This document shows, one piece after another, positions 4,973-39,685 of a stretch of DNA of 40,310 nt. The position numbers were made by a program, and so were the translations under genes. The stretch is taken from positions 1 through 40,310 of the forward strand of contig JAFXJR010000064.1 of assembly GCA_017532145.1 (NCBI GenBank), given 5' to 3'. Each line of letters begins with the position of its first letter. Positions within the stretch are counted from its first letter, which is position 1. The notes below the pieces were generated by a model, which was given only the letters and a program-made list of their open reading frames with translations, had not been told where the DNA came from and ran no database searches. The stretch comes from Lachnospiraceae bacterium. GTDB lineage: Bacteria; Bacillota; Clostridia; Lachnospirales; Lachnospiraceae.

Positions 4973-5196
4973 ATCGAATAATTAATATGATGCTAGGGTC
5001 AAAAGGTCATCTATTTTCTTGCTTGCATGAAAATAGATGACTTTAGGACCCACAAAACATGCGAAAGTAGCTATTTTTTGCAGAAAAATGTACGGATTTC
5101 AAATGTTTTTAGGATTTCGTGAGCGTGAAACGCGAAGAAATTCGTAAGCATCAAGGGGTCAAATGCTTTTGACCCCAACATCATTAATATTCGATA
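4973..5196. repeat. MITE-like palindromic element between ispG and polC
   Basis: The first about 36 bp (from ATCGAATAATTAATATGATG) and the last about 36 bp are inverted copies with small differences; both inner arms carry GGGTCAAAAG. Inside are further dyads, including a perfect 12-bp stem (TCATCTATTTTC with GAAAATAGATGA, 5009-5042) and a CGTGAGCG/CGCG-rich dyad. No ORF of note is present. The terminal inverted repeats plus internal hairpins fit a non-autonomous transposable element or a large transcribed hairpin. No clear target duplication can be defined. It would be transcribed if ispG and polC share an mRNA. Confidence 0.7.
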
Positions 5197-8042: not shown

Positions 8043-8765
8043 CTACAATAACCGGATGAACACTGCCGAAATATTGTCCTTTTCTCCCTGTCTTTTCACC
8101 CAATCTGCAATTTCCTTTAGTCTTAAAAAAATCTGCTCCCTGGTTCTAATTTCTCTTCCCTGCAAGGTCTCACCCAGTCGTTCCTCTGCAATTCTATTCC
8201 TGAATCCATCGGAACACATGAACAACGACTCGCCCTTCCTTAAATGACCTGTGAATGTATCCGGTTTCTTCCAGCTAAAGCTTCCCACACAGCGGTTGAG
8301 TGCCTGTCCCTCCTCTAGATGATCCTTCGTCAGTTGTTTGATTTTTCCAGCTCTCTTTCCAATTCTATATGCTCTGGTATCTCCACTATGCCATAGGAAA
8401 TATTTTCTTCCATCCAATAGCAGAACGGTGACAGCTGTTCCCAGCTTCTTCTGCCTATGTCTCCCAAAGTCTGACAGTTCCTCGTTACAGGCATATAAGC
8501 TTCGGATACCTGATTGTAAAATCCGCCTTCCTCCTTTTTTCTTTTTCAATAATCCGATTGCCTCTTGATAAAACCATTCTGTCATTCTCTCTGCCACAAA
8601 TCCACTGGCCTTTTCTCCACCCCAAAGTCCTCCAATTCCATCACAGACTACTGCAAATAGGAGCTTTTTTCTTTTTAGAGTTACTTCTTGCAAGGACAGA
8701 GAATCTTCATTCACCGCACGCTTACCTCTGTCCCAGTAAACCTCTGAAACAAAATTTTCCTTAAT
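8043..8765 (-). CDS. PP2C-family protein phosphatase, partner of the adjacent kinase
   Basis: This is a metal-dependent Ser/Thr phosphatase. Motifs: RGKRAVNEDS (first strand and metal Asp), VVCDGIGGLWGGEKAS, FLWHSGDTRAYR, LTKDH, FMCSDGF and KDNISAVFIRL. Length is about 240 aa, the normal single-domain size. The first canonical start (GTG at 8714) would remove the first beta strand and begin right at the NEDS motif. The frame stays open upstream to a TGA and contains no ATG, GTG or TTG. It does contain ATT at 8763-8765 exactly 7 nt after a GGAGG. I therefore place the start at this ATT, giving KENFVSEVYWDRGKR before the motif, as in homologues. It should oppose the kinase encoded 144 nt downstream. 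Confidence 0.9.
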   Translation of the reverse strand: MKENFVSEVYWDRGKRAVNEDSLSLQEVTLKRKKLLFAVVCDGIGGLWGGEKASGFVAERMTEWFYQEAIGLLKKKKGGRRILQSGIRSLYACNEELSDFGRHRQKKLGTAVTVLLLDGRKYFLWHSGDTRAYRIGKRAGKIKQLTKDHLEEGQALNRCVGSFSWKKPDTFTGHLRKGESLFMCSDGFRNRIAEERLGETLQGREIRTREQIFLRLKEIADWVKRQGEKDNISAVFIRLL

Positions 8766-8803
8766 AGTTACACCTCCATTAAAATATGCTTTTCTCTTCT
8801 TTC

Positions 8804-8830
8804 ATAACTGCTCTGTACCCTCACAGTTAC
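8804..8830. repeat. Dispersed palindromic repeat, copy 1
   Basis: The 27-bp sequence begins ATAACTGCTCTGTACCC and ends CACAGTTAC. It matches the copy at 33854-33880 at about 21 of 27 positions, and the arms AACTG/CAGTT pair. A related shorter form lies at 295-308 and a diverged one at 18421-18443. All are intergenic. Confidence 0.55.
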
Positions 8831-8871
8831 CCTACAAAATTCTTCTTTTCTCTGTTGAAAAGATTTTTTGA

Positions 8872-9050
8872 AAGAATGTGATCACTATCCGAAAACCAAG
8901 CGTTCCTTCAGCACATAAAATATACAAGGTACAAATGTATAGTATTCTCATTATAGGGCAGGGACTGCCCGAATTAACACCTGTGGAGATAGTAGGTTAC
9001 GAGGTCTGCGAAGCAGGAAGCCCATTGGCTTTAGACAATGGGTAGTTCAC
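8872..9050 (+). mobile_element. Decayed IS200/IS605-type element: tnpB 3' end plus right-end hairpin
   Basis: An open frame from 8872 to TAG at 9043-9045 ends with a typical TnpB tail: GQGLPELTPVEIVG followed by EVCEAGSPLALDNG. The stop is embedded in the element's terminal hairpin (CCCATTG 9021-9027 with CAATGGG 9036-9042), followed by TAGTTCAC. In intact TnpB elements this part is also the 3' end of the guide (omega) RNA scaffold. Everything upstream of the last about 57 codons is gone: no nuclease core and no tnpA. It is on the opposite strand to the phosphatase gene and ends about 105 bp from its start. Confidence 0.8.
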
Positions 9051-9996
9051 AGGATTTTTCCCAGAAAATAAAAGAATCGCTTAAACATTCTGGATTATCC
9101 TTATAAAAATGTAAAATCATCTGAAAACCTGCTGCCGACCGACAGCTAAAGAATTTTTTATCGTAAAATATGATATGTAATATAGATTATACGATAAACA
9201 GGACAAAGTTGCAACTAGACAAACTGCACAAATTTGTCCTAATTGTATCTTTGTCCTGCTTTCTGCAAAAAACTTCTTTTCTCTATGATTTACTGCTTAT
9301 CTTCTTTCTTTTTTCCAGAAAATATTTCTAAAGCTCAGATATATCTCTTGCATACCAATTTTTTCTACTTTCGTTACTTTCACGCTTATATCTATACAAT
9401 ATTACGTTGTAGTTTGAATAGCTTTAGGGTTTTCCAGCAATTCAAGTAGTATTGGGCGTTGTAGATTACGCCGCTACATACACATTTCCGTATATGCTGA
9501 CTATATTCGACCACTAACTCATGACTAAAGTCACAAGTGTGCGTGGTCGTTTCTAATCAAATCTTCTCTCTGGGAAATCCAGTTAAAATTAGGAGTACAC
9601 TCAAGTAATTGGATATCATATACTTGATAATCTGATGGATATTCGTCAGCAAATTTTTTTAACGTATATCGCATTGCTGGAAATTCATCCTTTTGACAAC
9701 ATGCTAAACAGTATATAAAGAATCAGGCGTATAATTTACCTCTCCCTAATTTACGATATGAACAATATCTGCTGTAATCCGATTCGTCACACTATAATGA
9801 TTAATTGCCTTTTCCACTACAAATTCCCCCTTATCATAAAATGTATAATTCATTACCTAAAACGTTTTCACTACTCATAGCTATTCCTACTAAGCACAGG
9901 CTGTGCTGACATCATCTATGTCTACACAACCTGTATTTACACTCAGCCTACCGGAATGTGTACTTCCTTCATTAGATTAAGTCTTTCACCATCCTC
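9049..9996. other. Gene-free stretch of transposon and gene remnants
   Basis: About 950 bp without an intact gene. It holds a promoter with two inverted repeats (9158-9258). It also has a hairpin at 9508-9547 reading on the minus strand with GACTTTAGTC at its tip, like IS605 right ends. A minus-strand open fragment of about 60 codons includes CCQKDEFPAMRYTLKKFADE and ends near 9538. A second minus-strand fragment of 35 codons starts MNYTFYDKGEFVVEKAINHY (near 9853) and includes NRITADIVHIV. A dyad AGCACAGGCTGTGCT lies near 9895-9909. I do not recognise the fragments. The impression is of repeated insertion and deletion. Confidence 0.6.
9158..9258 (-). promoter_or_regulatory. SigmaA-type promoter embedded in two inverted repeats
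   Basis: Read on the minus strand: -35 TTGCAA (9209-9214), 17-nt spacer, -10 TATAAT (9186-9191). An inverted repeat with arms TTATCGTA/TACGATAA (9158-9165 and 9190-9197) covers the -10 and start region. A second with perfect 10-bp arms CAGGACAAAG/CTTTGTCCTG (9199-9208 and 9249-9258) lies next to the -35 and has an extra GGACAAA-like motif inside. This is the architecture of a repressor- or activator-controlled promoter. It points toward the phosphatase/kinase genes about 400 bp away, antisense to the tnpB remnant. No regulator gene is nearby. Confidence 0.6.
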
Positions 9997-37849: not shown

Positions 37850-38206
37850 TTATGCAATCTTTCCCTTTGCTATCTCAGCCAGCGCAGTGAAACCTTCTGC
37901 ATCATTAACTGCCATTTCAGCCAGCATCTTTCTGTTAATTTCAACGCCTGCCAGCTTCAGTCCATACATAAACTTACTGTAGGACAGACCATTCATTCTC
38001 GCTGCAGCTTTGATACGTGCAATCCACAGCTGTCTGAACTGACGCTTTCTCTCTTTTCTTCCTGCTTAGGCGGTTGCCAATGCTCTCATCACGGACTGCT
38101 TTGCTACTCTATACTGCTTCGATCTTGCTCCTCTGTAGCCCTTTGCAAGCTTTAATACCCTGTTATGTTTCTTTCTGGCGTTCATTCCACCCTTAATTCT
38201 TGCCAT
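37850..38206 (-). pseudogene. rplT: Ribosomal protein L20 with an in-frame TAA at codon 47
   Basis: Translation from ATG at 38204-38206 gives [20 protein letters not shown]..., full length 118 codons to TAA at 37850-37852. The frame never shifts. Conserved parts are intact: [21 protein letters not shown], then after the stop [20 protein letters not shown] and [20 protein letters not shown]. Codon 47 (38066-38068) is TAA where the family has Tyr or Phe (TAT/TAC differ by one base). L20 is needed early in 50S assembly and also represses its own operon. The 46-residue product would lack the globular C-terminal domain, and the next in-frame ATG is codon 71. Either an error in the sequence, a functional copy elsewhere, read-through, or true loss. 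A 456-bp abnormal spacer lies upstream. Confidence 0.9.
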
Positions 38207-38662
38207 CTCTTATATCCTGCTACTAAAAACATATACAAAAATGTATATGCCAGATGATTTGCTACAATCTCACGATTTGTAGTTACTGCTTCAATGTGTA
38301 TGCTTTGGTAGTTACGGATAACACACTACTCACAAGTTCTTGTACACTCCACAGTCGTCAATTCCCGACTAAGCCATCGGTACATTCCTATAAATTCCTT
38401 TCCACGATTAGATATAGGACTTCATCTAAATAGCTTTTCCTTTCTTCATATTTTATTTGCCCTTGGTTTTAGGACTTGACCATTGGCCAACTACTACCAT
38501 CAAGGTTCTACCCTATCGTTAGCAAGGCTGTTTCAACTTGCACTGGTTTTTCTTCCTGTAGTTTTGCCTGCTATTAAGTCAGCACAAACTATGCTCTAAT
38601 TTTGAGTATATTTACTCAATTTTAATGATATTTATCACTACTTAATCATTCTTCCTTATGAC
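38207..38662. other. Abnormal 456-bp spacer between rpmI and rplT, probably a decayed insertion
   Basis: rpmI and rplT are normally a few tens of bp apart. Here the minus strand first shows two short AT hairpins, then a 20-codon open end AKLQEEKPVQVETALLTIG before TAG at 38508-38510. This resembles the PVE-containing tails of TnpB proteins. Next come dyads (CTTGA...TCAAG around TTGGCCAA), a hairpin CTACAA...TTGTAG near 38261-38281, and finally a terminator-like hairpin. No complete ORF is present. I read it as a decayed IS605/TnpB-like element with its RNA region, but this is an inference. Confidence 0.5.
38225..38249 (-). terminator. Terminator-like AT hairpin just upstream of rplT
   Basis: Minus strand: CATATACA, a 4-nt loop, TGTATATG, then TTTTT. 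It ends about 20 bp before the rplT start. The stem is AT-only and may be weak, but it could lower rplT transcription. Confidence 0.45.
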
Positions 38663-38860
38663 TTATAAATACGGTAATATCTTCTTTATATTCTTAACAT
38701 TCGTAGCATCTGTAATTGCCGGCTGTCTGAGATTCCTCTTTCTCTTTGCGGATTTTTTTGTCAAGATATGGCGCTTGTAAGCCTTATTTCTTTTTAATTT
38801 ACCTGTTCCTGTTACTTTAAAACGTTTTGCAGCAGATTTGCTTGTCTTCATTTTCGGCAT
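38663..38860 (-). CDS. rpmI: 50S ribosomal protein L35
   Basis: 65 aa, highly basic: [40 protein letters not shown] and a C-terminal [11 protein letters not shown], all family-typical, normal length. It binds 23S rRNA. It follows infC by 49 bp in the standard infC-rpmI-rplT order. The start has an AGGAGG site. Confidence 0.97.
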
Positions 38861-38909: not shown

Positions 38910-39416
38910 CTAACGCTTTTCAGTTAAAAACATCGTCATGCTCCTGCCCTCTACCTTGGGTGCCTTTTCAATAACTGCTATATCTGAAAGAGCTTCGGCA
39001 AAATCATCCAGAATATGTTTGCTGTTTGCCATATGGGCCATCTCACGCCCTCTAAACCGAAGGGTAATCTTTACTTTGTCGCCTTTGGAAATAAATTTTC
39101 TGGCTGCATTCATCTTTGTATTTAAATCATTGGTATCAATATTGGGAGAAAGACGAATTTCCTTAATTTCAATCGTTTTCTGCTTCTTTCTGGCTTCCTT
39201 TTCCTTCCTCGCCTGCTCATATCTGTACTTTCCATAATCTACAATCTTACATACAGGCGGCTTTGCTGTAGGAGCAATCTTTACCAAATCCAGTCCTGCT
39301 TCCTCCGCCAGACGAAAAGCTTCCTTAGAAGACATCACACCAAGCTGCTCCCCACCTTCACCAATAACACGTACCTCTTTGTCTCTAATCTGCTCGTTAA
39401 TAAATAATTCGCTAAT
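38910..39416 (-). CDS. infC: Translation initiation factor IF-3, starting at AUU
   Basis: IF-3 binds the 30S subunit, checks start-codon pairing and prevents subunit joining. I place the start at ATT (39414-39416), with AGGAGGG 7 nt upstream. This gives ISELFINEQIRDKEVRVIGE, the full N-terminal domain, and 168 aa in total, matching the family. The first canonical codon (GTG at 39338) would remove half of that domain. The lysine-rich linker (RKEKEARKKQKTIE) and C-terminal domain (GDKVKITLRFRGREMAH) are intact. An AUU start is known for infC in other bacteria, where IF-3 discriminates against it and so represses itself. The mRNA has a 5' leader with a terminator. Confidence 0.96.
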   Translation of the reverse strand: MSELFINEQIRDKEVRVIGEGGEQLGVMSSKEAFRLAEEAGLDLVKIAPTAKPPVCKIVDYGKYRYEQARKEKEARKKQKTIEIKEIRLSPNIDTNDLNTKMNAARKFISKGDKVKITLRFRGREMAHMANSKHILDDFAEALSDIAVIEKAPKVEGRSMTMFLTEKR

Positions 39417-39445
39417 GGCCTTGCCCTCCTCATAAATACAAACAT

Positions 39446-39685
39446 AAAAAAATGGATAGCATAACTATCCACTAAACTCCATATCCTCATTTTTCCCTTT
39501 ATGATAGGCTCAACCATAATATTATAAGCTGCTTTCAGAGGAAAAACGGAACGATGAACGCCTGACAGCCCAATTGCCCCAGGGTGAGAGTGGATACTCT
39601 GCTTGATTGTAGTCTGTAATGAACTATCTTCTCTGCTATCTGTTACAGACTTTGATAGTATATCATAGCATTCTGCAACCGTCAA
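39446..39685 (-). promoter_or_regulatory. infC operon promoter and attenuated leader (L20-leader type)
   Basis: Minus strand: -35 TTGACG (39680-39685), 17-nt spacer, -10 TATACT (39657-39662). A leader of about 200 nt ends in a hairpin TGGATAG/CTATCCA (39453-39471) followed by seven T, a Rho-independent terminator 30 bp before infC. In Bacillus the same operon is controlled by L20 binding to such a leader and promoting termination. The exact class here is inferred from position and layout. Confidence 0.7.

Follow-up and report, generated by a model that had tools for sequence, protein, structure and literature searches.

An in-frame TAA in rplT of a Lachnospiraceae draft genome and a probable separate IS607-type insertion in the Shine-Dalgarno region of the gene

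The gene rplT, which encodes ribosomal protein L20, is essential in laboratory species, and isolated nonsense codons occur in draft assemblies. According to the excerpted text of PMC10931766, bL20 is required for the first step of 50S assembly. Regarding mobile elements, the excerpted text of PMC11061315 describes RAGATH-18 as the scaffold of the guide RNAs of IS607 TnpB nucleases, in which the variable sequence past the 3' flank of RAGATH-18 acts as the guide, and reports a target-adjacent motif AGGAG in 18 of 22 strains and an adjoining IS607 tnpB for 64% of RAGATH-18 RNAs. IStrons, which combine a group I intron with an IS607-type element, are treated in PMC4227781.

Here we analysed a window that corresponds to the whole of contig C29 (40310 bases) of the draft genome G000 (2,595,317 bases in 134 contigs, 87.41% complete, 0.28% contamination), an assembly that is probably metagenome-derived, where rplT lies about 2 kb from the contig end (Table 1). 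On the plus strand, positions 38066-38068 read TTA, which gives TAA in the frame of rplT on the minus strand (its ATG ends at 38206); apart from this codon, the gene stays open until the regular TAA that follows codon 118. It matches the Pfam L20 model end to end (149.1 bits, positions 1-107 of 107) with one TAA within the match, in agreement with the initial annotation, which had described an otherwise intact gene with a stop at codon 47, conserved on both sides. The locus resembles the isolated nonsense codons of draft assemblies in having a single in-frame stop in an otherwise conserved gene.

Table 1. Coordinates of the features of the rplT locus within the window
Feature	Position	Strand	Remarks
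rplT (ribosomal protein L20)	37850..38206	-	118 codons, interrupted at codon 47
rplT codon 66, AAA (Lys)	38009..38011	-	Asn in 93/94 rplT genes
In-frame ochre codon TAA, rplT codon 47	38066..38068	-	Tyr/Phe codon in the other 93 rplT genes
Putative guide, 20 nt: remaining SD region + rplT start	38198..38217	-	guide use proposed after the excerpted text of PMC11061315
ORF-less IS607-type element in rplT Shine-Dalgarno	38218..38652	-	ends from comparison with the G010 spacer, left end +/- ~2 bases
Predicted closed RNA domain	38219..38434	-	GCTATT (38434-38429) pairs with AGTAGC (38224-38219)
Terminal hairpin CATATACAT...GTATATG near right end of element	38230..38249	-	–
RAGATH-18 (RF03064), guide-RNA scaffold of IS607 TnpB	38283..38355	-	68.8 bits, gathering score 44.9
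AAAGGAAAA, SD-like purine run directly 5' of closed RNA domain	38435..38443	-	putative SD use
rpmI (L35)	38663..38860	-	intact
infC (IF3), open frame from GTG	38910..39338	-	true start probably upstream, non-ATG codon
L20-leader-like RNA upstream of infC	39438..39610	-	31.2 bits, under Rfam gathering score 58.7

The spacer between rpmI and rplT had also been flagged as abnormal, and rightly so: it spans 456 bp, whereas 62 of the 65 measurable spacers of a set that includes the best 80 of 583 confirmed family loci are 20-64 bp long (29 were unmeasurable). The other two outliers are L083 (137 bp) and L005 from G014 (309 bp); the latter shows a large inverted repeat by eye and no RAGATH-18 match at the gathering score. 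In the nearest relative, G010, the spacer has 21 bp and contains AAGGAGG, and the element of the window sits inside that motif. The empty site of G010 reads TAAGGAGGATATAAGAG, GGATATAAGAG stands directly to the right of the window element, and the 26 bases that follow the element on its right agree with the empty site at every position (26/26); the left flank now reads AAGGAAG, so that the motif is no longer perfect. The insertion is thus found at a GG-containing site beside an AGGAG target-adjacent motif. The RAGATH-18 match within the element covers model positions 1-71 of 71, above Rfam's gathering score, and neither tnpA nor tnpB was found in 38207-38662 (no ORF of 60 aa there), which makes the element an IS607 derivative and not an autonomous member. 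Judging from these sequence comparisons, the spacer is a real insertion event of an ORF-less IS607-type element carrying RAGATH-18, separate from the TAA.

The element shares with IS607 TnpB/RAGATH-18 transposons, as represented by the excerpted text of PMC11061315, by an Agathobacter plasmid copy located between pflB and pflA (L028) and by a copy in the same genome (L019), the RAGATH-18 scaffold and an AGGAGG-like site beside a start codon. Its left end is 80% alike to that of L028 over 40 nt, and its right end resembles theirs in having a hairpin and a GAGTAGCAGG-like terminus. Unlike these transposons, it has no tnpA/tnpB; their place is taken by an additional 5' module, which is conserved, and by a closing stem that bears an SD-like run of purines. 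As far as the excerpted text of PMC4227781 describes IStrons, insertion at GG, ORF-less copies and harmlessness to the host gene are common to both, the difference being that the window spacer, L178 and L022 have no group I intron match in Rfam. An intron or IStron reading of the spacer was accordingly rejected: at E up to 1, Rfam matched nothing in 38180-38700 except RAGATH-18, and L178 and L022 gave no intron match at E up to 10. Titles and abstract beginnings of the literature searched on IStrons, on IS607, TnpB and MITEs, on RAGATH with Shine-Dalgarno and on hairpin bridging gave no description of such elements.

RAGATH-18 is present in 2 of the 16 genomes of the genus. In G000 itself, contig C24 holds full-length-looking IS607 tnpA and tnpB genes plus a RAGATH-18, and the TnpB, which carries Pfam domains PF12323, PF01385 and PF07282, is a candidate partner of the window's guide RNA. 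This copy (L019, G000:C24:3550-5488; tnpA of 224 aa, tnpB of 395 aa) adjoins the start of the following gene. Given the guide scaffold and the right flank identical to G010, the putative guide would be directed at the beginning of rplT in an unoccupied allele.

Related elements are dispersed in the family. Sequences like the middle of the spacer occur in 7 of 150 family genomes, a count that includes the genome of the window, and an element-typical 16-mer was found 21 times, in 11 of 397 genomes, compared with 3 matches of the reversed pattern. By inspection 18 of the 21 are elements (L181, L182 and L188 are not), and together with the window, L033, L178 (from IMG/VR) and two short G000 copies (C55, C15) they form the set of 23 used below; the weak matches L037 and L038 were rejected by inspection and stand outside it. 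The distance from AAAGG to TAGC ranges from 22 to 226 nt among the 23, with or without RAGATH-18. The short forms, one before a trpB-like gene (L026, G000:C55:6236-6369) and one in the pgk-tpiA spacer (L027, G000:C15:9846-9881), look like deletions keeping only the stem and the purine run. On C15, gapA, pgk and tpiA are all full length. Where the other genus genomes are invariant, the gapA of G000 (L027 406-1407) carries 10 residues of its own, pgk 2 and tpiA 0; for gapA, each of the other genomes has 0-2.

In 20 of the 23 elements, TAGCAG is followed at a distance of 6-11 nt by the start of a frame with 65 codons or more, compared with 326 of 4600 random positions from the same sources, the exceptions being the window (its TAA), L178 (53 codons) and L189 (frame cut by the locus end). 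Judged by eye from the translations, the genes behind the elements include rpmI, rplM, rpsD, rpsR, rpmA, pgk, tpiA, guaA, proS, argH and thiI, and copies at such unrelated sites suggest that the element is mobile. Since 22 other such elements directly precede start codons, those of rpmI, rplM, rpsD, pgk and tpiA included, the presence of the element need not mean a dying gene. The initial annotation had taken the spacer to point to a disturbed locus; its abnormality stands, and that inference is weakened, the spacer being a mobile element of a recurrent type.

The predicted minimum-energy fold closes GCTA...TAGC in 21 of the 23 elements (L184 and L197 do not close), compared with 0-2 of 23 for whole shuffles, 0-3 of 23 when the right end was moved and 3 of 17 for other TAGC within 300 nt. 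The elements were chosen by their ends, which fixes the first four closing pairs (GCTA/TAGC) by selection, so that independent support is limited to the inner stem, the terminal hairpin and pair five of the closing stem. The fifth pair is T-G in 11 elements, T-A in 4, A-T in 3, C-G in 2 and not standard in 3. For the inner stem, 13 of 13 elements pair better with their own partner than with the average other partner, with the caveat that 10 of the 13 pair equally well or better with at least one foreign partner. This signal comes mostly from L193 and L190; in L193 a different yet complementary sequence gives -8.6 kcal/mol with its own partner and -2.6 on average with the others. Terminal hairpins that differ in sequence yet pair are found in L187, L191, L193, L196 and L198, and that of L192 has one mismatch. 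The fold of the window element itself is modestly better than that of shuffles (z -1.86, with 8 of 200 shuffles as good).

The elements have in common a predicted closing stem whose 5' side carries an SD-like AAAGGA, which suggests an element with its own ribosome-binding site. Pairing was predicted with an anti-SD sequence from outside this genome, which we presume to apply, and amounts to -12.1 kcal/mol for the native site of G010, -4.1 for the AGCAGGA that adjoins the start codon of the window's rplT and -5.6 for the AAAGGA beyond the closed domain. The insertion would remove the native SD of rplT, folding into the closed domain would place the 5'-side AAAGGA near the start codon and so replace the lost site, and the embedded guide RNA would target the unoccupied start region of the gene. 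This account of how rplT may be translated behind the element extends to a proposal that we regard as possible and hold tentatively: dispersed ORF-less elements of Lachnospiraceae, some with a TnpB guide RNA, would enter the SDs of genes, those for ribosomal proteins and glycolysis included, and restore the site by folding AAAGGA to the start codon, the guide making the insertion self-protecting where the gene is essential. The weaker local SD alone could also explain translation behind the element.

Regarding the stop, 95 rplT loci were compared, 15 from the genus and 80 from named Lachnospiraceae (the best 80 of 583 confirmed), one of them a duplicate, leaving 94 distinct genes. Codon 47 is TAT in 56, TAC in 25, TTT in 8, TTC in 4 and TAA in one, that of the window, so the residue is indeed normally Tyr or Phe, as had been proposed, and an internal stop occurs in 1 of the 94. 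Within the genus, 15 of 16 genomes have one rplT match each and the stop is found in the window's genome only. L20 was found in 384 of 397 sampled family genomes, with no stop among the matches listed, which do not include the window's own. Three genomes rated 98-100% complete, G280 (one contig), G139 and G158, gave no L20 match at E 0.001, and their rplT may be unusual or broken.

The same 94 genes, with the best 80 of 583 among them, reveal a second oddity that the initial annotation had not mentioned, Lys66, where all others have Asn. One private change at an otherwise invariant column is found in 8 of the 94 sequences, so Lys66 is no more than suggestive; residues G87, I112 and G115 are private within the genus and found elsewhere among the 94. 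Relative to G010 (L004), 10 codons ahead of the stop are changed, 8 of them synonymously; in codons 48-118 synonymous changes number 26 and others 9, which indicates that selection acted until recently on the part of the frame that follows the stop. Private changes occupy 59 of 2399 invariant columns in ten other genes of the window (polC, ispG, rseP, dxr, cdsA, uppS, frr, pyrH, rpmI and infC; pstB and phoU, with one orthologue each, were excluded), compared with 51 of 2391 in G010. These genes were picked as open frames, and their lack of stops is a result of that choice. The similar frequency argues against general decay, and the lack of a general excess of errors likewise gives no positive sign of a poor consensus.

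Elsewhere in the window, a Clostridiales-1 RNA (RF01699, 110.4 bits) lies at 4988-5153 on the plus strand between polC and ispG, and about 1.2 kb at 8780-9990, between rseP and a PP2C gene, has no minus-strand frame of 60 aa and looks decayed. At 8714-8764 the PP2C gene has an apparent non-ATG start after a good SD; G010 is also without ATG and other relatives have it. A start-codon loss near 8750 as a second error was rejected, the ATG there being also missing in G010. The L20 leader was rejected as a guide to function, since all four matches, the window's included, are below the gathering score.

We consider it somewhat probable that the TAA is a private base change and not recoding, likeliest a consensus error or a base from a mixture of strains and next a very recent nonsense mutation, with the spacer as a separate, real IS607-type insertion. 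With a selected frame, no general decay and no UUA tRNA among those read, we rank an error or a mixture of strains first, a real mutation second, and a second copy or read-through below these two; no sign of a recoding system was seen. Nothing found ties the TAA to the element, whose relatives precede open genes and whose candidate guide points at the rplT start and not at codon 47. A pyrimidine-to-A error pattern (TAA; AAA at codon 66) was not shown by the private changes in the ten other genes, as judged by eye. That the dominant strain truly carries a nonsense mutation of very recent origin, in a slow-growing or transient lineage and perhaps eased by an already weakened ribosome-binding site, appears unlikely, although the change is a clean single base in an otherwise conserved frame, Lys66 behind the stop is a second oddity that also counts against an error, and the local SD is predicted to be weaker than the native one. 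The product would then comprise 46 residues and lack both the globular domain and the region of E. coli R50 and R51. Against such a mutation stand the role of bL20 in the first step of 50S assembly (excerpted text of PMC10931766), the absence of a second assembled copy and the little sign of decay in rplT. In the available excerpts of the literature searched on L20, no report of an rplT deletion was found.

That rplT is a redundant, decaying copy, with a working one in the unassembled part of the genome, seems improbable. The Pfam L20 model found a single match among the contigs, rplT itself, so the search for another gene that had been suggested yielded none in an assembly of this completeness. 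The S8 gene, present in 14 of 16 genus genomes, is missing, and the genome is thus truly incomplete; two L20 matches occur in 2 of 397 family genomes, which would allow a second copy within the missing 13%, and insertion, TAA and Lys66 make three oddities in one gene. On the other hand, none of the 15 genus genomes in which L20 was matched has more than one match, the rplT frame is still conserved, and a viral copy was rejected, as IMG/VR gave 59 pattern-matching stretches and none encoding an L20 relative. Read-through by a suppressor tRNA or a changed code is very improbable. The conserved frame behind the stop would fit it, and a suppressor could hide among the tRNAs missing from the assembly, tRNA-Tyr among them; against it, none of the 23 tRNA genes read by ARAGORN (24 Rfam matches) in this incomplete assembly has the anticodon UUA, and TAA ends 16 of the 32 window genes, so that reassignment was rejected. 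Among the explanations originally listed, error, second copy and real loss remain, and a suppressor is without support. A split L20, in which a 46-residue N-terminal peptide and a re-initiated C-terminal part cooperate, can hardly be expected: the two E. coli domains have separable activities in the excerpted text of PMC6962249, but the first in-frame ATG, GTG or TTG past the TAA is, as read from the sequence, Met71, within the globular domain, and re-initiation before it was rejected.

A real TAA would mean a cell that lives on truncated L20 and would challenge the minimal set assumed for 50S assembly, a possibility that the evidence does not favour. Of the two findings, the spacer carries more weight. 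It illustrates how a guide RNA derived from a transposon can occupy the ribosome-binding site of core genes and leave them working, and it suggests, as the newer of the two leads, a putative mobile element equipped with a translation start of its own.
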